Shown: positions 48,987-62,023 of the stretch, one piece after another
How positions within the stretch are numbered: position 1 is the first letter of the stretch
Layout of the letters: each line of letters begins with the position of its first letter
From: Chloroflexota bacterium
GTDB taxonomy: Bacteria > Chloroflexota > Anaerolineae > Anaerolineales > UBA4823
NCBI GenBank assembly: GCA_029265355.1
Contig: JAJUJL010000007.1
Span: 1 to 64,000, forward strand
DNA: 64,000 nt
Direction: 5' to 3'
The notes under the pieces: model-generated
What the model saw: only the letters and a program-made list of their open reading frames with translations
What the model was told of the DNA's origin: nothing
The model's database searches: none
Translations under genes and position numbers: made by a program

Positions 48987-50489
48987 TTGCCAGCCTTGCC
49001 CTCCAGTTCCGTCGATATCACGCAGGGCAGCCTGCTCGGCAAGCTGCTGCGCCACAGCCCGGTGTACCTGACCAGCAGCCTGATCATCGCCTTCACCGCC
49101 TTCTTGCTGCTGCCGGTCAACACTCGCCTGTTTCGCGAAGACGATTACGGCGCCATCTCGACCATCGACGCCGCCTCCGACCTGGTGATCATCCTGGTTT
49201 CGCTCAACCTGATCACGGCCTACATGCGTCATTACTACGAGTACAAGGATGATCCCGAGCAACTCAGCCTGTATACTTCCACGATTTACTGGTTCATCGC
49301 CGGATGGGGCGCGCTTGCCACGGTCGGCTCACTGCTGGTCTCTGGTTTCTTTCTTCCCGCTGCCATCCCGGTCTGGCCGGTGCTGGCGCTGGCGTTCTCC
49401 TCGACCGTCTTGATCCAGCTCGGGCAGCTCAGCGGCTCTTACCTGCAGCAAATTCACCGACCGGTGCTGCAGGTCAGCCTGAACCTGGCGAATTTTTTGA
49501 CCCACGCGGCGTTGATGCTGATCCTGGCAGGTGTGTTCAAGCTGGGGCTGACCGGCAAATACATCGCTGTGCTGTGCGGCGGATTGCTCTCGGCGGCCAT
49601 CGGCACCTGGGTGCTCATCCGCGAGGGGTTGCTGCGCTGGCGCATCTCCTGGCCGATGCTCAAAGAATCCCTGATCTTCGCCATTCCCTTGCTGCCCAAC
49701 GCCGCCTCGGGTTGGATCACCGGTTTATCGGATCGCATCTTGCTGGCGAGGTATGGCAGCCTGGCGGAAACCGGCATTTACAACGTCGGCTACCTGCTGG
49801 GGAGGGGCATCACCATCTTCTCTGAAGCGATCTTTCTGGTCTACGGCCCGATGATCTATGCCATGCTCAAGAAAGATCCTGCCACAGCCCAGGTGCGCAT
49901 CGCCCGTTTCGTGCCCTATTTCTTCATGTTCATGCTGTGGATGTGCCTGGGATTATCGCTCTTCGCCGCTGAGATCGTGGCCATCGTGGCGCCGGCGCGC
50001 TATGCATCTGCCACCACGGTGGTGCCCATCGTGCTCAGCGCCTATTTCCTGGGTTCGCAGTACAAGACCTTCGTCCTGCTGCTTTCCTATCACAAACAAA
50101 CGCTGGTCATCTCGCTGGGGAGCATCTTGCAGGCCAGCGTCAATCTGGGGGCCAACCTCCTGCTGATCCCACGCTATGGGAAAATCGCCGCAGCCTGGAC
50201 AACGCTGATTGCCCTGGCCATTTACCTGGGTTGGCTGTTCATTTGGTCGCAGAAGAATTTCCGCTTGGAGCTGGATTACCGTCGCATCACGGCCAGCGCG
50301 CTGGTGGTGGCGGCGGCAGCCGGCGGCGCTGCCCTGCTGTTGGATTTGCCCCAGGTGACTGGCTCCCTGGCGCTGACCATCGGCGTCAAGGCCATGCTGC
50401 TGCTGGGTGTGGCGGCAGTCACCTGGTTTGCCGGGCTGATCCTGCCGGTGGATAAGCGCCAGATCAAATCATTCTTGAGGCTGGCATAA
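48987..50489 (+). CDS. Oligosaccharide flippase (Wzx-like)
   Basis: 'LRHSPVYLTSSLIIAFTAFLLLPVNTRLFREDDYGAISTIDAASDLVIILVSLNL' and about 12 TM; TTG start with AGGGAAGG upstream, alternative ATG at 48939. Confidence 0.88.
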   Translation: MPALPSSSVDITQGSLLGKLLRHSPVYLTSSLIIAFTAFLLLPVNTRLFREDDYGAISTIDAASDLVIILVSLNLITAYMRHYYEYKDDPEQLSLYTSTIYWFIAGWGALATVGSLLVSGFFLPAAIPVWPVLALAFSSTVLIQLGQLSGSYLQQIHRPVLQVSLNLANFLTHAALMLILAGVFKLGLTGKYIAVLCGGLLSAAIGTWVLIREGLLRWRISWPMLKESLIFAIPLLPNAASGWITGLSDRILLARYGSLAETGIYNVGYLLGRGITIFSEAIFLVYGPMIYAMLKKDPATAQVRIARFVPYFFMFMLWMCLGLSLFAAEIVAIVAPARYASATTVVPIVLSAYFLGSQYKTFVLLLSYHKQTLVISLGSILQASVNLGANLLLIPRYGKIAAAWTTLIALAIYLGWLFIWSQKNFRLELDYRRITASALVVAAAAGGAALLLDLPQVTGSLALTIGVKAMLLLGVAAVTWFAGLILPVDKRQIKSFLRLA

Positions 50490-52402
50490 TGTGCGGCATC
50501 TCTGGTATCGCCAATTTCCTGGAGCCCGCCTCCCTGGCGGGGTATTACGCCGCCCATCTGCGGCTGAGGCACCGCGGCAAAGACGACGAAGGTTTCTTCG
50601 CCGTGCATCAGGAGCGCGTCTGGTACTGCCGCGGCGACGACAGCCTGGTCATCTTCGGTCATTACCCGCACATCGAGGCGCTCAGCGCCGCCAACCTGGT
50701 GCTGGGTCACCGCCGGCTCTCGATCATCGACGTCTCACCCGGCGGTCACCAGCCGATGTCGTACCAGGATGGGCGCTACACGATGATCTTCAACGGCGAG
50801 ATCTACAATTACATCGAGCTGCGCGACGAGCTGCAAGCGTTGGGGCATCGCTTCACCACCCAATCCGACGCCGAAGTGCTGCTGGCTGCCTTTGCGCAGT
50901 GGGATACCGGCTGTTTCAACCGCTTCAACGGCATGTGGGCAGCAGCGATCTACGACCACCTGATACAGCGCCTGGTACTGTCGCGCGATCGCTTTGGCGT
51001 CAAGCCGCTGTACTACGCTCAAATCCAGCGCACGCTGTACTTCGCCTCGGAGGTCAAATTTCTGCTCAGCTTCCTGCCGCGCCTGGCTGTGAACGAGGGA
51101 CGGGCGGTCGAGTTCGCGGTGCAGAGCGTGGTCGACCACCACACCGAGACAATGTTCCAGGACGTCTACCAGCTTCCGCCAGCGCATTATGCCATCTTCG
51201 ACGCCAGCGGCTTCTCCCAGCAGGCCTATTGGCGCTTGCCAGAGCGGCAGGCTCGCCTCACGCTGGCAGAGGGGCGCGAGCAATTGCTCGATCTGCTCAG
51301 CTCGTCGATTCGCCTGCGCCTGCGCAGCGATGTGCCCGTCGGCTCACTGCTCAGCGGCGGGCTGGATTCGACCACCATCGTGTGCATCGTGCGCCGCCTG
51401 CTCGAAGAGTCCAACGCCGGCAACAGCTTTGACCTGTTCTCAGCCGTCTTTCTGGAGGAAGCCTACAGCGAGCGCCGCTACATCGAGGAGACCGTCGCGC
51501 AGACACAACTTCCCATCCATTGGATCTATCCTGATCCCGAGCGCCTGGCCGAGACTTTACCGGTCTTGATGCACCACCAGGAATTCCCCATCCGTTCGCT
51601 GGCAGTCTATTCCCAATGGGAGATCATGCGCCAGGTGAGCCAGACGCCGATCGTGGTGCTGCTCAATGGGCAGGGCAGCGACGAGATTTTTGGCGGTTAC
51701 ACCGCCCATTACTTCGCCCTGATCGCCGAATACCTGCGCCGCCTGCGCCCAGGCCACGCCTACCGGCAGGCGCGCGCCCTGGCGCAGGCGCGGGAAATCA
51801 GCTTGCTGCAAGGTTTCGCTGGCGCGCTGCGGGAATTGGTGAAGAGCTCGCCCTTGGGCAGCCTTACCCGGCAGCGGCGGGTGGCTTATCTCAGCCAACC
51901 GTACGACGAGCCGCAGGGCTGGCGCCAGCAGCAAGACCTCTTTCGCAACGCCCTGGTGCGCAACCTGACCTTCAGCGCGCTGCCCGAATACTTGCGCTAC
52001 GAAGACCGCAACAGCATGGCATTCACCCTGGAGTCGCGGCTGCCCTTCATGGACTACCGCCTGGTGGAATGGGCGATGTCGCTGCCAGCCGAGCTGAAGA
52101 TCCACGGTACGATCAGCAAGCGTGTGCTGCGCGAAGCGGCGCAGGGGCTGATCCCCGAATCGATCCTGGCGCGCCGAGATAAGATGGGCTTCGTCTCGCC
52201 CCAGGAGCTATGGCAGCGACAGGCGCTGGCGCCGCTGCTCGAGGCGGCTTTCGATCAAGATCTGCAAGGACGTTTTCCCTTCCTGGCAGAGAAAAAGTGC
52301 CAGGAGATGTACGCTGATTACCAGCAGGGACGGCGCAATGATTGGCCCTGGGTGTGGCGCATCGCCAACCTGGTCTGGTGGCATCAACATTGGTGGGGAT
52401 GA
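50489..52402 (+). CDS. asnB: Asparagine synthase (glutamine-hydrolysing)-like amidotransferase
   Basis: 'MCGISGIANF' Cys2, 'SDAEVLLAAF', 'VPVGSLLSGGLDSTTI'. Confidence 0.93.
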   Translation: MCGISGIANFLEPASLAGYYAAHLRLRHRGKDDEGFFAVHQERVWYCRGDDSLVIFGHYPHIEALSAANLVLGHRRLSIIDVSPGGHQPMSYQDGRYTMIFNGEIYNYIELRDELQALGHRFTTQSDAEVLLAAFAQWDTGCFNRFNGMWAAAIYDHLIQRLVLSRDRFGVKPLYYAQIQRTLYFASEVKFLLSFLPRLAVNEGRAVEFAVQSVVDHHTETMFQDVYQLPPAHYAIFDASGFSQQAYWRLPERQARLTLAEGREQLLDLLSSSIRLRLRSDVPVGSLLSGGLDSTTIVCIVRRLLEESNAGNSFDLFSAVFLEEAYSERRYIEETVAQTQLPIHWIYPDPERLAETLPVLMHHQEFPIRSLAVYSQWEIMRQVSQTPIVVLLNGQGSDEIFGGYTAHYFALIAEYLRRLRPGHAYRQARALAQAREISLLQGFAGALRELVKSSPLGSLTRQRRVAYLSQPYDEPQGWRQQQDLFRNALVRNLTFSALPEYLRYEDRNSMAFTLESRLPFMDYRLVEWAMSLPAELKIHGTISKRVLREAAQGLIPESILARRDKMGFVSPQELWQRQALAPLLEAAFDQDLQGRFPFLAEKKCQEMYADYQQGRRNDWPWVWRIANLVWWHQHWWG

Positions 52403-53178: not shown

Positions 53179-54438
53179 ATGTCTTCGCGCTCACTTCTGT
53201 TCGTGGCTTACAATTTTCCTCCGCACGGCGGACCCGGCGTGCAGCGCAGCTTGAAGTTCGTCAAATACCTGCCAGAGTTTGGCTGGCAGCCAGTGGTGAT
53301 CAGCGCAGCGCCCGAGGCCAGCCCGCTGCAGGATGCTTCCCTGGCAGCCGAAATCCCCCGCGACGCAGCCATCCACCGCCTCCCCGGCTTCAGCATCCTG
53401 CGCTTGCTGGCGCAGGCAAAGCGCTACAGGTTGGGCAAAGCGGTTGTGCTGCTGAACTTGCTGCTGCAGGTACCTGATCCCGCCATCTTCTGGGCACTCC
53501 GGGCGCGCGCCACGGTCGCCAGGCTGATCCAGGCGCAGCGCCCGGCGGCCATCTACACCACATCCGGGCCGTACAGCGCTCACCTGGTGGGGTTGTGGGC
53601 CAGGCAGCAGTTTGGCATTCCCTGGCTGGCGGATTTCCGCGACCCCTGGAGCCGCAACCTGCTGATCCCCTACCTGCCCGGCTACCGGGCGCTCAACCGA
53701 CGCATCGAGCGGCGCGTGCTGCGGGCGGCGGATGCGATTACCTGCGTATCGCAGCCATGGCTCGAAGATCTGCAGGCCAACCTGGGAGAGCGCGCTGAGA
53801 AATTTTTCTTTCTACCCAACGGCTATGATGAGGCGGATATCCAGCCCCTGCCCGCCCCCCAGCCCGGCGCGCCTTTCACCATCACCCACCTGGGCAGCTT
53901 CTATCGCAACCGCAAGCCCCAGGCTTTCCTGCAGGCGATCGACGCGCTCATGCGCGGCGGGCAGATACCGCCCGCTTCGCTGCGCCTGCGCTTCATCGGC
54001 AAGAATCCACCCGGCGCGCTGCCCAGCCAGCCGCCCTTTGAAATTTACGGCTACCTGCCGCACAGCGAGCTGGGACGCTTCCGCGCTGAGAGCGATGTGT
54101 TCTTGCTGATCCTGGGCAGCGCGCCGGAAAACCGGGGCAACTACAGCGGGAAAATCTACGAATACCTGGCCTGCAATCGCCCCCTCCTGGGCATCGTGCC
54201 TCGCGGCGGGGTGGCCGAGCAGCTCATCGCCGAGACGCGCACCGGCATCGCCGTGAGCGACTCGCCCGCCGAGATCGGAGCAGCCATCCTGCGCCTGTAC
54301 CAGGAATGGCGGGCGGGTAATCCAGGCTGGAACCCAGATTGGCAGGCCATTCGCCAATACACGCGCCGCAACCAGACCGCCCGTTTAGCAGAGATCTTGA
54401 ATGCTTTGACCAGCAAAATTCCCGAAACGCCTCGTTAA
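53179..54438 (+). CDS. Glycosyltransferase family 4-type
   Basis: 'LLFVAYNFPPHGGPGVQRSLKFVKYLPEFGWQPVVIS', 'GKIYEYLACNRPLLGIVPRGG'. Confidence 0.9.
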   Translation: MSSRSLLFVAYNFPPHGGPGVQRSLKFVKYLPEFGWQPVVISAAPEASPLQDASLAAEIPRDAAIHRLPGFSILRLLAQAKRYRLGKAVVLLNLLLQVPDPAIFWALRARATVARLIQAQRPAAIYTTSGPYSAHLVGLWARQQFGIPWLADFRDPWSRNLLIPYLPGYRALNRRIERRVLRAADAITCVSQPWLEDLQANLGERAEKFFFLPNGYDEADIQPLPAPQPGAPFTITHLGSFYRNRKPQAFLQAIDALMRGGQIPPASLRLRFIGKNPPGALPSQPPFEIYGYLPHSELGRFRAESDVFLLILGSAPENRGNYSGKIYEYLACNRPLLGIVPRGGVAEQLIAETRTGIAVSDSPAEIGAAILRLYQEWRAGNPGWNPDWQAIRQYTRRNQTARLAEILNALTSKIPETPR

Positions 54439-55490
54439 AGCAGCCCCTGCCTCACCAGCAGCTCTGCGTTGTAGATCGAGCCGCCCGCCGCGCCGCGGAT
54501 CGTGTTGTGCGACAGCACCACCAGGCGCAGATCGAAGAGCGGGTCGGGGCGCAGGCGCCCCACCACCGTGGTCATGCCCTTGCCAGCCATGCGATCCAGG
54601 CGCGGCTGGGGACGATCGGCTTCGCTGCGCAGCAAAATCAGCGGCTGGGGCGTAGAGGGCAGGTCGGCAGCCGCGGGAGGAACACGGTAGGCCAGCAAGG
54701 CTGCCTCGGCTTGCTCGACGCTCGTCGGCTGCCCCAGCTCCACCGAAAGGCACACCATGTGCCCATCGCTGACCGCCACACGGTTGGTGTGGGCTGAGAT
54801 GCGAAAGCCAGCCAGCTGGATGGCGTCGCCGTCGAAGCGCCCCAGCATTTTCAGCGGCTCGCTCTCCACTTTTTCTTCTTCCCCATTGATATAGGGAATG
54901 ACATTGTCCAGGATATCCAGCGAAGGCACGCCGGGATACCCAGCGCCAGAGATGGCCTGCATGGAGAAGGCCATCACACGCCGCAGGCCAAAGGCATCCA
55001 GCAGCGGCTTGAGCGCCACGGTCATGCCGGTGCTGGTGCAGTTCGAGTTGGTCACAATGGCGCCCTGCCAACCGCGCCTGCGGCGCTGCACTTCCACCAA
55101 CCCGGCGTGTTCCGGGTTGACCTCTGGGATCAGGATGGGCACATCCGCTTCTTCCCGGTAGGCGGAAGCGTTGGAGCAAACCAACACACCCGCGCGCGCA
55201 AATTCAGGCTCGATGGCGCGCGCCTTCTCGGAAGGCAGCGCCGAGAAAGCCAGCCGGGCGCCGGTCTGCTCCGGTTCGCTGGGCAAGAGGGGCATTTCCG
55301 CAGCCCAGGCAGGCATGGCTTCGCCCAGCACCCAGCGGCAGGCTTCACCGTAGACGCGCCCGGCGGAGCGATCCGAGCCGGTCAGGGCTATCACCTGGAA
55401 CCAGGGGTGTCCATCCAGGAGCTGCACAAAGCGCTGCCCGACGCTGCCAGTAGCTCCCAGGACGGCAACGGGGATTTTCTCACCGGTCAT
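54435..55490 (-). CDS. asd: Aspartate-semialdehyde dehydrogenase
   Basis: 'VAVLGATGSVGQRFVQLLDGHPWF', 'VTNSNCTSTGMTVALKPL'. Confidence 0.95.
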   Translation of the reverse strand: MTGEKIPVAVLGATGSVGQRFVQLLDGHPWFQVIALTGSDRSAGRVYGEACRWVLGEAMPAWAAEMPLLPSEPEQTGARLAFSALPSEKARAIEPEFARAGVLVCSNASAYREEADVPILIPEVNPEHAGLVEVQRRRRGWQGAIVTNSNCTSTGMTVALKPLLDAFGLRRVMAFSMQAISGAGYPGVPSLDILDNVIPYINGEEEKVESEPLKMLGRFDGDAIQLAGFRISAHTNRVAVSDGHMVCLSVELGQPTSVEQAEAALLAYRVPPAAADLPSTPQPLILLRSEADRPQPRLDRMAGKGMTTVVGRLRPDPLFDLRLVVLSHNTIRGAAGGSIYNAELLVRQGLL

Positions 55491-55549: not shown

Positions 55550-56974
55550 TCACGTGGTCAGCGCGTGCAGCGCCTTCACAGCAGTCTCGGCGTCCTGCTC
55601 GGCCACCACCAGGCTGATGGCCACTTCCGAAGAACCCTGGGCGATGGCAATGACGTTGACGTTGCGCTCGCCCAGCACGCTGAACACCCGCCCGGCTATG
55701 CCCGGGGTGTGCTGCATGCCGGCGCCCACCACGGTGATGATCACCACCTCGTCGGAAGCCCACACCCGGTCGATATCGCGGCGGGAAAGCTCGTTAGCAA
55801 AGGCCTCTTCCAGCGCAGCCACCACCTGACGGGCGGCATGATAAGGCACGGCGAAGCAGATGGACTGTTCCGAGGAGGCCTGGGTGATGAGCGGCACGCT
55901 GGTGCCGGTGGCCGCCACGGCGGCGAAGGTGCGCGCCGCCACGCCGGGCACGCCCAGCATGCCGCGCCCCTCGATAGTCACCAGCGATTGTTTACGGATG
56001 GCGGTGACCGCCTTAATCGCCCCGTTGCGTTTGGAGCCGGCGTCCGCTACCAGGCGCGTCCCAGGGTGCTGCGGATTGAAAGTGTTGCACACGCGCAAGC
56101 CGATGCCAGCCTCGATCACCGGGCGGATGGTCTTGGGATGCAGCACCTTAGCGCCAAAATACGCCAGCTCGGCGATCTCGCGGTAGGAGAGCACCGGAAT
56201 GGTGCGCGCTTCGGGCACCAGGCGCGGGTCTGCCGACATGACCCCATCCACATCCGTCCAGATCCACACTTCATCGGCGGGCAAGGCTGCCCCCAGGATG
56301 GCCGCCGAGTAATCGCTGCCGCCGCGGCCCAGCGTGGTGGGAATGCCTTCCGGCGTGGCAGCGATGAAGCCGGTCACCACCGGCACGCGCCCTTGGGCGA
56401 GCAGCGGCTCGAGCACGCGGCGCGTGCTGAGCGTGGTCGCCGCCAGGTCGGGGTGAGCGTCTTGAAAGTGGCGATCAGTGACGATCAATTGCGTGGCCTC
56501 GATGGGCTGCGCCGGTATGCCTTGCGCCTCCAGCACGGCAGACAGCAGGCGCACGCTCATGCGCTCGCCCAAGCCAGAGAGGGCATCCAGGGCGCGCGGC
56601 GTGGCTTCGCCCAGCACCGAGAACGCCTGGCACAGGTTGGTGAATTCCGCCAAAAGGTTGCCGATCTCCTGCTTGAGTTGGGCGGCGGTGGCTTGCTGCT
56701 CGCGCCGCGGGCCAACCAGCAGAGCGTCGATCACCGCCTCGTGCTGGGCCGCGATGCGCGCAGCAGCCTGGTGGAAGACATCCACCTGCCCCTGCACCGC
56801 TTTCGCCGCGCCTTCGAGCAGCAAATTGGTCACCCCCGCCATGGCAGACGTGACCACCACCAGGCGCGGCCAATCGCCGCGGGCAGACCGGACGATGCCA
56901 GCCGCCGCCTGGAAGGCCTCGCTGTTGCCGACGGAGGTGCCGCCGAATTTCATCACCAGGGTTGGCATTTGCAT
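55550..56974 (-). CDS. lysC: Aspartate kinase
   Basis: 'VMKFGGTSVGNSEAF', 'TLGRGGSDYSAAILGAAL', 'IWTDVDGVMSADPRLV', two ACT-like domains. Confidence 0.95.
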   Translation of the reverse strand: MQMPTLVMKFGGTSVGNSEAFQAAAGIVRSARGDWPRLVVVTSAMAGVTNLLLEGAAKAVQGQVDVFHQAAARIAAQHEAVIDALLVGPRREQQATAAQLKQEIGNLLAEFTNLCQAFSVLGEATPRALDALSGLGERMSVRLLSAVLEAQGIPAQPIEATQLIVTDRHFQDAHPDLAATTLSTRRVLEPLLAQGRVPVVTGFIAATPEGIPTTLGRGGSDYSAAILGAALPADEVWIWTDVDGVMSADPRLVPEARTIPVLSYREIAELAYFGAKVLHPKTIRPVIEAGIGLRVCNTFNPQHPGTRLVADAGSKRNGAIKAVTAIRKQSLVTIEGRGMLGVPGVAARTFAAVAATGTSVPLITQASSEQSICFAVPYHAARQVVAALEEAFANELSRRDIDRVWASDEVVIITVVGAGMQHTPGIAGRVFSVLGERNVNVIAIAQGSSEVAISLVVAEQDAETAVKALHALTT

Positions 56975-56978
56975 AGGA

Positions 56979-57623
56979 TCACCTCATCATCGATAAACTG
57001 ATCAAAATGGCCAAACCGAAGACCAGGATCACCGCTCCAGAGAGCCGGTCGATCCAGCGCAAGACTGGCGGCGAGAGGCGAGCGCGCAGCGCAGCGGCAG
57101 CGCTGCTCAGAAGCAGCCACCAGGCAGCCGAGCCGCAAAAGACGCCCAACACCACCCAGCCCGCCGAGGCTGCGCCCGCCCCGACCGCCAGCCCCAGGCC
57201 AGCAAACACCGCCGCGAAGGAAAGGATGGTCAGCGGGTTGGAGAGGGTCAGCGCAAACGTGCTCAGGTAGATGCGCAGCGGCTGGAGCGGCTCTGCCGGC
57301 GTTCGATCGAGATCGAACGCAGTGGGCTGGAGCCTGGAGGTCCACAAAATGCGCCCTCCCAGCCAGCACAGGAACAAACCACCCACCAGGCGCAGCCAGA
57401 ATTGCTGTCCCACCAGGAAACCGGATAAAGCGGTCAGGCCGAATGCGCCCAACAGGGCAAACAGGCTATCAGCGCTGGCTGCGCCCATACCCGCCGAAAA
57501 CCCTGCCCACCGCCCACCGGCGAGCGAGTGGCGGATGCACAGCACGCCGATCGGCCCAACCGGCGCGGCGATCGAAAACCCGACCACCCATCCCTGCCAG
57601 AAGAAACTCACCTCGCCCGGCAT
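56979..57623 (-). CDS. LysE/RhtB family amino-acid exporter
   Basis: 'GFSIAAPVGPIGVLCIRHSLAGGRWAGFSAGMGAASADSLFALLGAFGL'. Confidence 0.92.
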   Translation of the reverse strand: MPGEVSFFWQGWVVGFSIAAPVGPIGVLCIRHSLAGGRWAGFSAGMGAASADSLFALLGAFGLTALSGFLVGQQFWLRLVGGLFLCWLGGRILWTSRLQPTAFDLDRTPAEPLQPLRIYLSTFALTLSNPLTILSFAAVFAGLGLAVGAGAASAGWVVLGVFCGSAAWWLLLSSAAAALRARLSPPVLRWIDRLSGAVILVFGLAILISLSMMR

Positions 57624-57634
57624 GTTCGCTCAGC

Positions 57635-60460
57635 TCACGCGCCATTTGGCGGCAGCGTCTGCGCCAGTTCATCCAGCGCCCGGTAGTACGGGTAGATGCT
57701 GGGGATGTAGTGGCGCTCGTTGGCAGCGTGGGGAGCGAGCCCGCTCTGCCCCCACACCACGCCCTGCCCGCCCGGCGCAAAGCGGGCGCTGGTGCCGGGC
57801 AGCTTGCGCCCGATGACCGCTGGCAGGCCGGAGGCGCGCTCGACGGCGGCGATCAATCCGCGCAGGTACGGGTTGTGCGGGTCGCAGGCGATGCCGTTTT
57901 CCATCACCGGCACCACCAGCTCCAGGCCGTTTTCACGGCAGTAGTCTTCCAATTCCTGCCGCAGGGCGCCCAGGTCATCCTGGGGAATGGGGCGCACCTC
58001 CACGCCGATCACGCCGTAATCGGCGGTCACGTTGTAGATGCCAGGCGTGCCAACCTGGATGAAGGGGAAGCGCGCCTGCGATTGCCAGCCATCGGGGGAG
58101 TTCAGCGTCAGGCGGCGCTGCAGCAGGGCCGCCACCTCGGCGCGCGCGGTGAGCAACCGCTCAGACAGGTCGCGCTGGGCGCCGGCGACGCCAGAATGGC
58201 CGCGCTGCCCGCGCGCCACCAGGTCGAAGCGCATCACGCCCCGGTTCTGGATGCAGATCTCGCCCCACAGCTCGCTGCCTTTCTCGCCGGTGCGCTCGCC
58301 CGCCACCAACAGCGAGGGCTGGTAGCCCTCTTCTTCTTGCAGCAGGCGCAGCACGTGGGGCGTGCCCATCGCCTCGCTTTCGCCATTCTCTTCATTGCCA
58401 ACCAGCAGCAGGTTGACCGGCGGGTAGGGTGGGCCCTGGCGCAAGCGATCTTTCATCCACACCAGGAAGGTGGCCACGACGGTCTTCATATCGGCGGCGC
58501 CGCGCCCCCACAGGTAATCGCCCTCGACGCGCGGCTCGAACTGGCTGTCATCGGGGTCGGGCTCCACCACGTCGAAATGCCCTGAGAGCATCAGCGGGGC
58601 GTGCATCTGCCCGGGAAAGCCGACCAGCAGCGCCGGGTAAGCCGAGCGGTTATAGTAACGCACCCCCAGGCCGCGGCTGCGCACATAATCGAAGATCAGC
58701 GTGGCCGCGCGATGCACCTCGTCCAGGCGCTCCTGCGGACAGGCGGTCACGGAAGGGATGCGGATGAGCGTCTGCGAAAGCGCCAGTACCTCGCTGGTTT
58801 TGTCGGCGTAGACCGTTTCCACCAGGTTATCCAGGCGCGGGCGGAAGCGCACCGGCGCCTGCGGCTCAGCGTGCACGTCATCGCGCGCCCTTTGCAACAG
58901 CTCGCCCAGCTTTACCGACTCGCTCCCCAGGTCAGCCAGGTGGGCGGCGATCCACTCCACATCGCGCGCCACGCTCGCCTGGCGCTCCTCCGCCAACTGG
59001 CGCAGCAGTTCCAGGGGCACTTCATCGCTGGGGCCGACCAGGGATTGCAGGCGCTGGCGCATGGTCTCGGCGGTGTTTGGAGCGCCTTGCGCCATGGCAA
59101 CCAGCGGAGCCAGGTCCTCCCACAGTCCCAGCGCCTCTGCCAGCGGGCGCACCTCCGCCAGCGTCCAGCTCAGGAAGCTGCGCATGGCGATCGGCTTGCC
59201 GGTGAGCGGGTTTTCGATCTCAGCGCGCAGCCCACCTCGGGCGGCCTGCTCTTCGTTGCTGCGGGCGCGCTCCAGGTCTTCGCGATCATAGCGGAAGGCG
59301 CGCCCGAAGTGCTCATCGGCGTAAAAGCGCAGCAGCAGCAGGTGCTTGAGCGTCAGGTTGGCAATTTCGATTTCCAGCGGGTGCCCGCCGTCATCGGTGC
59401 GCACTTCGACCCGCGACATGGGCAGGTTGATGCGCGCCATCAGGTTTTGCATCTCGATCTGGGCTGCCATGGCCTCGGTGGAAACCGGCTCTCCCAGGGC
59501 GTACAACCCGCGCGCGTAGATCTCGGTGAGCTGCTCGCTGGTGACGGCGATCAGCCGCTCGACCGGCTCTGCGAAGGAGCGGGCGCGCACCGGCGTCCAG
59601 TTGTTGTTGCCAAAGCGCACGCCCTGGCGGACAAGCTCGTAAGACAGGTGCAAATAATCCTCGTATGAGCGGTACAGGTCGGGGAGGTCTAAGGAGGCGG
59701 GGTTGGGAAAGGTCAGGCTGCGCAGCGAATCGAACGGGGTGAGCACGACCACCTCCCGACCCTGGCGCTGCGCAGCGCGCAGCGGTGTAGAGGCGCTGGT
59801 GGCGATGAACAGGGCGGCAAAGGCGCGCATCAGGCGGGTGGCGGTGATGTAGAACTTACTCTTGAAATCGTCCAGGTGCAGGTCGCCGCGCTCGGAGGCT
59901 GGCAGGTGCATGAAATCCCAGGCAAAGAGCGGGTCAGGCAGCGACAGGTTGGCGTGCACGCCTGCCACCGCCAGGTCCTCGCCGTACAGGTCAACGCAGC
60001 GTTCCAGGTAACGGCGCTTCGCCAGGTGCCAGGAACCGGGGATGGAATGCGCGCCGACGCTGGTATTGACCAGCAGGTTGCCGTGCCAGTGGTACAGGCG
60101 CTCGCCGAATTGCTCTCCCGCCTTGTGCAGCGCGTTGAGCAGCAGCCCTTCCATGAGGCGACCCTCGTACACTGCGCCGCGCGGGGTGTAGTAGGGGCGC
60201 GTAGCCCATTCGATCATCCAGTGGAAGACTTCTAACTGCGAGGCGCTGGCGGACCAACCCGGAAGCACCTCGGTGCGCAGGTAATCGACGAACGATTGCT
60301 GAGCCGGTCCAGAGCCGACCGTGAGCAGCGGGCGGAGTTGCGAGTCCAGCAAGTTCCATTCCAGCTCGAAGCCGCACAGCCCCCCCTGCAAGCGCTCCTT
60401 GAGCGCAGTCTGCAGGGCAAGCTGGTATTTCTCGGCAAATTGAGCGACATCAAAAGCCAT
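57635..60460 (-). CDS. Fusion: N-terminal glutamate-cysteine ligase (GCS2)-like domain + C-terminal M20 family metallopeptidase
   Basis: N-term 'FELEWNLLDSQL', 'AVAGVHANLSLPD', 'RVEVRTDDGG'; C-term 'LMLSGHFDVVEPD', 'LWGRGAADMKTVVATFL', 'GNEENGESEAMGT'; single uninterrupted ORF. Confidence 0.72.
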   Translation of the reverse strand: MAFDVAQFAEKYQLALQTALKERLQGGLCGFELEWNLLDSQLRPLLTVGSGPAQQSFVDYLRTEVLPGWSASASQLEVFHWMIEWATRPYYTPRGAVYEGRLMEGLLLNALHKAGEQFGERLYHWHGNLLVNTSVGAHSIPGSWHLAKRRYLERCVDLYGEDLAVAGVHANLSLPDPLFAWDFMHLPASERGDLHLDDFKSKFYITATRLMRAFAALFIATSASTPLRAAQRQGREVVVLTPFDSLRSLTFPNPASLDLPDLYRSYEDYLHLSYELVRQGVRFGNNNWTPVRARSFAEPVERLIAVTSEQLTEIYARGLYALGEPVSTEAMAAQIEMQNLMARINLPMSRVEVRTDDGGHPLEIEIANLTLKHLLLLRFYADEHFGRAFRYDREDLERARSNEEQAARGGLRAEIENPLTGKPIAMRSFLSWTLAEVRPLAEALGLWEDLAPLVAMAQGAPNTAETMRQRLQSLVGPSDEVPLELLRQLAEERQASVARDVEWIAAHLADLGSESVKLGELLQRARDDVHAEPQAPVRFRPRLDNLVETVYADKTSEVLALSQTLIRIPSVTACPQERLDEVHRAATLIFDYVRSRGLGVRYYNRSAYPALLVGFPGQMHAPLMLSGHFDVVEPDPDDSQFEPRVEGDYLWGRGAADMKTVVATFLVWMKDRLRQGPPYPPVNLLLVGNEENGESEAMGTPHVLRLLQEEEGYQPSLLVAGERTGEKGSELWGEICIQNRGVMRFDLVARGQRGHSGVAGAQRDLSERLLTARAEVAALLQRRLTLNSPDGWQSQARFPFIQVGTPGIYNVTADYGVIGVEVRPIPQDDLGALRQELEDYCRENGLELVVPVMENGIACDPHNPYLRGLIAAVERASGLPAVIGRKLPGTSARFAPGGQGVVWGQSGLAPHAANERHYIPSIYPYYRALDELAQTLPPNGA

Positions 60461-60471
60461 AACCATCTCTC

Positions 60472-61776
60472 CTAAATTGCATTCAGTCCCTGCAGCAGGC
60501 GCTGGAAGGCGCCAGCGGTGCGCTCGGGCGGGGTGGCGTAAGAGAAGCGCACCCATTCTCCGCCATAAGCCGAAAAGAACGGTCCCGGAACGATGGCGAC
60601 GCCGTGCTGCTCGGCCAGGTATTGACCCAGGGGCTCGCTGTCCGCCCAGCCCGCCTTGGACAGCCATGCGCCGACGTGGATAAAGGCATAGTAGCCCTTC
60701 CCCAGGATGTAGGTGAACCCGTGCTGATCGAACAGCGCTTTGAGCAGCTTGCGGCTGGCGTTGGTGGGTTCGACGATCGGGCGGCAGGCTTCTGCGTAGC
60801 CCATCTCATAGGCTGCGATGGCCACGGCCGCGGCGTAGAATGGCGGGATGACGCCGTGCGAGGCGCGCGCCACGGTGAACTTGACCACCTCGTCGGAAGC
60901 GATCAGGTGACAGTTGCGGATGTTGGAACCGCCCAGGCTCTTGGTGATGCCGTCCAGGAACATCAGCCGCTGGCGTTCTCCAGGCTCGAACAGTCTTAGG
61001 AAGGCGTTCAGATCCATAGGCTGCTCGTCGGTGACGTAGTGGTACATCCAGTCGTAAAGCACGAAAGCCGCCCCGGCCTGCAGCGCGGCGCGACCCAGGG
61101 CAGCCTGGCGCTCGGGTGTGAGGGTCAGGCCAGTGGGGTTATCCGGGCAGGTGATCAGCACGCCTGCCAGCTTGCGCCCGGAGCGGGCGGCGTACTCGGC
61201 GCAGGCCTGCAAGCCCTCTTCGGTGTAAGCCCAACCCTGCCTGGGATCGCCCGGAGCGTACATCACGTTGGCGCCCACACCATACGGCCCCCAGTTATAG
61301 GAGATCCACGGCACGCGCGAGACAACCAGCACATCGCCCTGTCGCCCATGGCCGAGCGCCAGCATGGCCTGGTAGGCTTTGACCAGCGCGTCGCGCCCGC
61401 CAACGGTGGAAATGACATTGGCGGGACCAAAACCCAGCCCGGGGTCCAGCTTCCAATATTGCTCGATCACCGCTTTGCGGTAGGCGTCGTGCCCGAAAGG
61501 CATGTCGTACGCCGAGCCGTGCTCCACCTGCATCTCAGCCGCGCGCATCAGGATGTGGCGCGAGACGCCCGGCAGGCTGGCGCCGCCATCGCCCTGCGAG
61601 GCATCGAAGACTGGGCTGCCAGGGTGATTCTGCTGGTAGGTTTTCAGGGATTTATTGATCAGGAACATGCGCGATGGCGGAATGGGCATCTGATGGCTGA
61701 GGTAATCACTGACCGGGGTCAGGTTCTCGGCGGGCACGGCGTAGTCCGGCTGGTCGTTGGGTTTCAGGGCAGGCAT
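60472..61776 (-). CDS. Class I/II PLP-dependent aminotransferase
   Basis: 'VLITCPDNPTGLTLTPE', 'LFLDGITKSLGGSNIRNCHLIAS'. Confidence 0.88.
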   Translation of the reverse strand: MPALKPNDQPDYAVPAENLTPVSDYLSHQMPIPPSRMFLINKSLKTYQQNHPGSPVFDASQGDGGASLPGVSRHILMRAAEMQVEHGSAYDMPFGHDAYRKAVIEQYWKLDPGLGFGPANVISTVGGRDALVKAYQAMLALGHGRQGDVLVVSRVPWISYNWGPYGVGANVMYAPGDPRQGWAYTEEGLQACAEYAARSGRKLAGVLITCPDNPTGLTLTPERQAALGRAALQAGAAFVLYDWMYHYVTDEQPMDLNAFLRLFEPGERQRLMFLDGITKSLGGSNIRNCHLIASDEVVKFTVARASHGVIPPFYAAAVAIAAYEMGYAEACRPIVEPTNASRKLLKALFDQHGFTYILGKGYYAFIHVGAWLSKAGWADSEPLGQYLAEQHGVAIVPGPFFSAYGGEWVRFSYATPPERTAGAFQRLLQGLNAI

Positions 61777-61830: not shown

Positions 61831-61858
61831 AAAAAAACGCCCCGCTGCTGCGGGGCGT
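61831..61858 (-). terminator. Attenuator terminator of the threonine-leader operon
   Basis: ACGCCCCGC agca GCGGGGCGT then TTTTTTT (minus strand). Confidence 0.92.
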
Positions 61859-61876
61859 CGTCCGGTCTCATTTCAT

Positions 61877-61984
61877 TTACGCCAACCTGGCGCACCTGTG
61901 AGCTGCACCGCGCGAACGCCCCGCCGGAATATGACGATTAGTGGTGGTGGTGGTGTTCATCGCGAGAGTGTGCAGGGTGCTCAT
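61877..61984 (-). CDS. Threonine leader peptide MSTLHTLAMNTTTTTNRHIPAGRSRGAAHRCARLA
   Basis: 35-aa ORF, 7 Thr in its first 15 codons including ACC ACC ACC ACC ACT; between promoter and attenuator hairpin. Confidence 0.85.
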   Translation of the reverse strand: MSTLHTLAMNTTTTTNRHIPAGRSRGAAHRCARLA

Positions 61985-61994
61985 AATGGACGCT

Positions 61995-62023
61995 ACTATA
62001 CCATTTGGAGCGGTGGGCGTCAA
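61995..62023 (-). promoter_or_regulatory. Sigma70-type promoter of the attenuated operon
   Basis: TTGACG-N17-TATAGT on minus strand, starting just after the polyprenyl synthetase stop. Confidence 0.85.

Follow-up and report, generated by a model that had tools for sequence, protein, structure and literature searches.

The thrL leader of the E. coli thrABC operon has been described with consecutive ACC codons (PMC4132733) and, according to a title cited in PMC7041290, reads isoleucine as well as threonine. Leaderless leader peptides as such are known from two sources: the trpL RNA of Sinorhizobium meliloti, whose 5' end is the leader ATG itself (PMC7298713), and mycobacterial leaderless short ORFs with poly-cysteine runs, which lie upstream of amino-acid genes and were proposed as attenuators (PMC4633059; also Canestrari et al. 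2020, cited in PMC9031893). Leaders of the hisL type, in which His codons and a terminator precede his genes, have been reported from Proteobacteria and some Firmicutes (PMC9413887). In the literature searched, which covered few subscription journals, no account was found that describes attenuation by leader peptides in Chloroflexota or a leader rich in both Thr and Asn codons.

The leader described here was identified in a window (i.e., the whole stretch of DNA analysed) of 64,000 nt from an Anaerolineales (Chloroflexota) genome, and its elements all lie on the minus strand. It is very probably a ribosome-mediated transcription attenuator with a near-leaderless leader peptide that controls an aspartate-family operon, and it would respond to charging of Thr-tRNA and probably of Asn-tRNA. 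Runs of Thr codons, mutually exclusive hairpins and a terminator ahead of aspartokinase-type genes are shared with thrL. In contrast with thrL, which has an efficient ribosome-binding site, the Anaerolineales leader would start near the 5' end, and it belongs to a different phylum and precedes different first genes. Asn rather than Ile codons are enriched together with Thr, which differs from the Thr and Ile pair given for thrL in the title cited above. Like S. meliloti trpL, the present element is probably a leader-peptide attenuator, with a start at the 5' end that is suggested here by the geometry of the -10 box, while trpL carries Trp codons, precedes trpE(G) and belongs to the Alphaproteobacteria. 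The mycobacterial ORFs are leaderless, as is probable here, and are likewise short and marked by codon runs, but their codons are for Cys and their hosts are Actinobacteria. The Thr/Asn leader and the order-wide set of leaderless leaders in Chloroflexota look new.

Leader region and operon in the window

Coordinates of the leader elements and of the genes that follow are given in Table 1. No other promoter-like site was found in the 2 kb scanned, and the -35 box of the leader promoter is separated by 12 nt from the end of the upstream gene, ispB. The leader ATG sits 10 nt past the -10 box and opens an ORF whose product includes the stretch MNTTTTTNR, so that the Thr run is flanked by Asn codons. 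A run of five Thr codons occurs nowhere else in the window in any frame on either strand. Further along the ORF, segment 2 is a second copy of the 3' arm of the terminator, which begins 17 nt past the leader stop codon. The first-pass annotation had pointed out the promoter with its closely spaced ATG, the five consecutive Thr codons, the duplicated arm and the terminator with its T tract downstream of the ORF, and all four are present. In another frame, the bases of the Thr run read DEHHHHH-stop (61961-61938, minus strand), but downstream of the promoter this frame offers none of the start codons ATG, GTG and TTG.

Table 1. Features of the leader and operon in the window, with the histidine leader found elsewhere in the same genome
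Feature	Position	Strand	Remarks
Sigma-70-type promoter TTGACG-N17-TATAGT	61995..62023	-	-35 TTGACG 62023-62018; -10 TATAGT 62000-61995
Near-leaderless leader ORF MSTLHTLAMNTTTTTNRHIPAGRSRGAAHRCARLA	61877..61984	-	35 codons; ATG at 61984; stop TAA 61879-61877
Sensor stretch Asn-Thr5-Asn (AAC ACC ACC ACC ACC ACT AAT)	61937..61957	-	Thr codons 61954-61940
Segment 1, 5' leader stretch overlapping Thr codons	61944..61974 (approximate limits)	-	From minimum-energy fold
Segment 2, antiterminator arm GCGGGGCGT	61916..61924	-	Within leader ORF; second copy of terminator 3' arm
Segments 3 and 4, intrinsic terminator GACGCCCCGC-AGCA-GCGGGGCGTT	61836..61859	-	T tract to 61831; -20.4 kcal/mol
Class I/II PLP aminotransferase, first gene	60472..61776	-	Pfam PF00155
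Carboxylate-amine-ligase-like and M20 fusion, second gene	57635..60460	-	Conserved beside aminotransferase
LysE-family exporter (LysE/RhtC-type)	56979..57623	-	Nearest models homoserine/threonine efflux
Aspartokinase with ACT domains	55550..56974	-	
Aspartate-semialdehyde dehydrogenase (asd)	54435..55490	-	
Leaderless His-run leader MKQPFTARHHHFPLPLA (locus L084)	G000:C10:12160-12201	-	10 nt after its -10; terminator follows

The aminotransferase matched no NCBIfam equivalog above cut-off. The N-terminal part of the second gene product is weakly similar to glutamate-cysteine ligase and YbdK-type carboxylate-amine ligases, and the C-terminal part is an M20 (ArgE/DapE-type) deacylase. With an aspartokinase, asd and an exporter, the genes make up an operon of the aspartate family, a better match to a threonine signal than the aminotransferase would be by itself; it is on the aspartokinase, asd and the threonine-exporter-like gene that the putative link of the operon to Thr and Asn rests, and they fit it. 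Most relatives of the aminotransferase came from Chloroflexota genomes that carry the label Anaerolineales or Anaerolineae; a few came from Holophagaceae, Geothrix and one further Acidobacteria genome. The ligase-like gene comes next after the aminotransferase in most of these loci, and aspartokinase, with or without asd, lies downstream in several.

Some further features of these loci were recorded. The ligase-like/M20 fusion is always near the aminotransferase, and the pair possibly serves a route in which a group is attached to an aspartate-derived substrate, the product is transaminated and the group is then released. In four relatives (L033:10272, L034:10226, L037:11666 and L045:11654), the operon is followed by a tRNA gene whose anticodon is CAT. 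On the plus strand of the window, an ORF at 50489-52402 has a start (MCGISG) that, judged from sequence, reads like that of a glutamine-dependent asparagine synthase, and it clusters with ORFs that look flippase-like and glycosyltransferase-like.

Conservation and codon content of the leaders

A leader of the same kind was present in 42 of 63 non-redundant regions upstream of orthologous aminotransferase genes and absent from the other 21, the 42 comprising 40 from a promoter-anchored search (after two spurious matches were dropped) and two (L042 and L072) added by hand. The promoters were mostly TTGACG-17-TATAGT, -TATATT or -TATCCT, and the start codon lay 6–11 nt past the -10 box, most commonly 10 or 8 nt, in all but one of the 42 leaders; the exception, L072, has no adjacent promoter. 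Thus, a 5' UTR of roughly 0–4 nt is implied for these RNAs. An intrinsic terminator lies between promoter and operon in every case, those of L024, L035, L049 and L076 having been entered by hand since the automatic search missed them. A strict scan, which required a promoter score of at least 8/12, a start 5–11 nt after the -10 box, an ORF of 8–45 amino acids and a terminator below -10 kcal/mol, was passed by 35 of the 63 upstream regions as opposed to none of their 63 reverse strands and 7 of 940 random slices, which indicates that the arrangement is not due to chance. In the clade of L013, L014, L018 and L022, the start follows the -10 box by 6–7 nt and is GTG in two members, and a differing motif (GTGTGTCGG or similar) occupies the expected position of segment 2.

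Thr and Asn accounted for 25% and 14% (13.7%), respectively, of codons 2–22 in the 42 leaders. The corresponding values were 2–8% and 1–2% in the other two frames of the same stretch, 4.9% and 2.6% in neighbouring genes and 9.4% and 3.1% in histidine leaders of the same lineage. Counted over the 10 codons richest in them, Thr and Asn together averaged 6.7. Dinucleotide shuffles gave 2.7 (with 3.14 as the highest mean among 200 replicates), and the other two frames gave 1.7 and 1.3. Both Asn codons and all four Thr codons occur across the leaders, while codons for Ile, Lys and Ser (AGY) are not enriched. The signal therefore lies at the codon level and is specific to the aminotransferase operon. 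The label "threonine attenuator", as the first-pass annotation had it, is thus probably incomplete, since Asn codons flank the run and are enriched in relatives; the codon frequencies suggest that Asn is probably read along with Thr.

Loss of the Thr run or of arm complementarity in relatives, which would have spoken against the original interpretation, was not what the orthologs revealed. All 42 keep a Thr/Asn-rich ORF followed by a terminator, in nearly all some part of the leader could pair with the 5' arm of the terminator, and compensated changes occur in arms 2, 3 and 4.

Predicted alternative folds and proposed mechanism

The terminator 5' arm (segment 3) has two alternative partners, i.e., its own 3' arm (segment 4) or segment 2, which is usually found 55–78 nt away from the leader start. 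The complementarity between segments 2 and 3 averaged 18.7, whereas shuffles averaged 10.3; taken one by one, 27 of 40 leaders exceeded 95% of their own shuffles, values to be read with the fact that segment 2 was placed by best complementarity, which biases toward pairing. At the most variable position of the stem, changes are matched in both partner arms: C to A in L009, L057 and L072, C to T in L031 and L056, and C to G in L014 and L022, where segment 2 is less certain. Leaders with these compensated changes are related, so not all are independent events.

Folds were predicted for 40 leaders, L014 (mis-placed arm) and L013 (no GCCC core) having been set aside. Free RNA folded into the terminator in 38 of the 40, and segment 2 was paired with the 5' part of the leader in 36; in the window leader, the minimum-energy fold pairs segment 1 with segment 2 and its flank, so that the 5' part can also sequester segment 2. 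With a ribosome placed on the Thr/Asn stretch and arm 4 not yet made, the antiterminator was the best fold in 37 of 40, whereas with a ribosome at the stop codon the terminator was predicted in all 40. Thus, pairings 1:2, 2:3 and 3:4 of the classical attenuator set are all present in silico. The window RNA was also folded after removal of 5' nucleotides: removal of 36–48 nt left the antiterminator as the minimum, while removal of none or of 51–54 nt left the terminator. The thrL-type switching logic proposed in the first-pass annotation is supported in that the predicted alternative folds behave as proposed. In the complete RNA with a stalled ribosome, 33 of 40 leaders nevertheless had the terminator as their minimum-energy fold; since the terminator is favoured in these once its 3' arm exists, the model needs kinetic, co-transcriptional folding.

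The position of the leader stop codon bears on how termination would be brought about. A group of relatives has its stop codon 10 nt past the segment 2 anchor, and in these a terminating ribosome would therefore cover segment 2. In the window and a dozen other leaders, the stop codon follows segment 2 by 33–45 nt and precedes the terminator, where measured, by 7–20 nt, so that a ribosome halted there would occupy the stretch that separates segment 2 from segment 3. Masking of the antiterminator arm by such a ribosome, which had been part of the original proposal, thus does not apply in the window, where the stop codon is 39 nt beyond the anchor base of that arm, but the predicted outcome, i.e., the terminator, is unchanged.

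In the mechanism that we propose, transcription would start within a few bases of the ATG, as the spacing from the -10 box suggests, and the leader peptide would be translated from leaderless or near-leaderless RNA. When charged Thr-tRNA, and probably Asn-tRNA, is scarce, a ribosome would stall on NTTTTTN and cover segment 1, so that segment 2 could pair with segment 3 while segment 4 has yet to be transcribed; with the antiterminator so formed, RNA polymerase would read into the operon. With charged tRNAs in supply, the ribosome would continue to the stop codon, past segment 2 and short of segment 3, and the terminator would form. The terminator would also form when no ribosome is present, in this case through pairing of segments 1 and 2.

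An attenuator that senses threonine alone, with Asn codons incidental (e.g., because the stretch must stay G-poor), would agree with the five Thr codons in a row and just two Asn codons in the window, with the excess of Thr over Asn in most leaders and with the threonine-exporter-like gene in the operon. This reading is nevertheless unlikely, given the frequency of Asn relative to neighbouring genes and to histidine leaders, the use of both Asn codons, the inclusion of Asn in the densest stretch of 39 of the 42 leaders and the greater number of Asn than Thr codons in some of them (e.g., L060, L062 and L028). An addition to the Thr/Asn reading, in which threonine is perhaps read twice, through charging of Thr-tRNA and through threonine-derived t6A on tRNAs for codons that start with A, those for Thr and Asn included, was considered; t6A methylation is known to tune thrL attenuation in E. 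coli (PMC4132733). This addition appears improbable, being weakened by the fact that other A-starting codons (Lys, Ile and Ser AGY) are not enriched. Overlap of segment 1 with the Thr codons and its pairing with segment 2 mean that part of the sequence is constrained as RNA, but the further step of attributing the Thr/Asn richness to selection for unstructured or segment-1-pairing RNA, with the ORF no sensor at all, is very improbable: the enrichment is limited to the ATG frame and exceeds that in dinucleotide shuffles of the same bases, third-position choices extend to all four Thr and both Asn codons, and the same design before hisG carries His codons.

Terminator/antiterminator pairs are also the output of riboswitches, T-boxes and RNA-binding proteins, and translation would be irrelevant if a small molecule or protein controlled the present pair. 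Such control seems still harder to credit, in that an Rfam search (E up to 1) in which the thr operon leader family, T-boxes and riboswitches were included gave no match at the leader, and the element opens with a start codon near the promoter and is enriched for Thr and Asn in the frame of that codon. Two other readings, each with almost no likelihood in our estimation, were rejected because the orthologs contradict them. In one, the bases of the Thr run encode a histidine leader in the other frame (five CAC codons, then TAA), as the DEHHHHH-stop reading and the occurrence of real histidine leaders in the lineage might suggest; however, that frame lacks a start codon after the promoter, the ATG frame of orthologs is one of Thr and Asn codons (mean His content, 1.9%), the operon downstream contains no his genes and a separate leader precedes hisG. 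In the other, the terminator merely ends transcription of ispB, which stops close to the -35 box, and the arrangement of promoter and ORF is accidental; against this, many orthologs (e.g., L044, L058, L059 and L062) keep the leader with no upstream ispB detected, and the terminator is always between promoter and operon.

Histidine leaders and probable leaderless starts in the lineage

A screen of the genome for the promoter-plus-ATG pattern gave 42 matches as opposed to 21 for a backward control, the screen being tied to the promoter pattern so that leaders with a weak -35 box are missed. From this excess, and from several matches that open long ORFs, leaderless starts look common in the genome, and leaderless genes have been predicted for Chloroflexi, as for other phyla (PMC3160421). 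Just one other match had a codon run in a short ORF together with a terminator, namely the His-run leader MKQPFTARHHHFPLPLA, which lies ahead of genes with one product that matches hisG and one that reads as hisD. As in systems of the hisL type, a His-run leader and a terminator precede hisG, but the start of the Anaerolineales leaders is close to the -10 box.

In relatives, a lenient search located a His-run ORF before hisG in 47 of 56 loci (L123-L178), nearly all with a -10-like box 5–13 nt upstream. The strict scan was passed by 38 of the 56, with a His-run ORF in 36 of these, and three further hisG loci of the same order also carried the leader. None was found before hisG in 30 loci sampled across the wider phylum or in 6 loci from other orders of the class. 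The same design thus recurs with His codons, and the lineage appears to use leaderless leader-peptide attenuation as a standard device. The strict scan upstream of other genes of relatives was negative for ilvB (0/25) and trpE (0/12) and gave one match for hom (1/31), which had no meaningful codon run, indicating that the design is not general for all amino-acid operons. The genome of the window contains two homoserine dehydrogenase genes elsewhere (G000:C8:19431-19964 and G000:C27:121414-121947), and neither has a leader of the Thr/Asn kind by the strict scan. The first-pass annotation had called the apparently leaderless leader ORF unusual; the near-leaderless geometry holds, but the arrangement is conserved, is shared with the histidine leader and has precedents.

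Relative to the first reading of this locus, three things are gained: the leader is conserved, Asn is probably co-read with Thr, and the leaderless design is common to the his operon across the order. The leader also suggests a connection between aspartate-family metabolism and the aminotransferase with its ligase/deacylase partner. The mix of Thr and Asn codons suggests a joint sensor for two aspartate-derived amino acids, of which we found no description. If a near-leaderless design does serve at least two amino-acid operons across the order, leaderless leader ORFs would prove to be a routine basis for attenuation, and the design raises the question of how ribosome loading on a nascent 5' AUG keeps pace with RNA polymerase.
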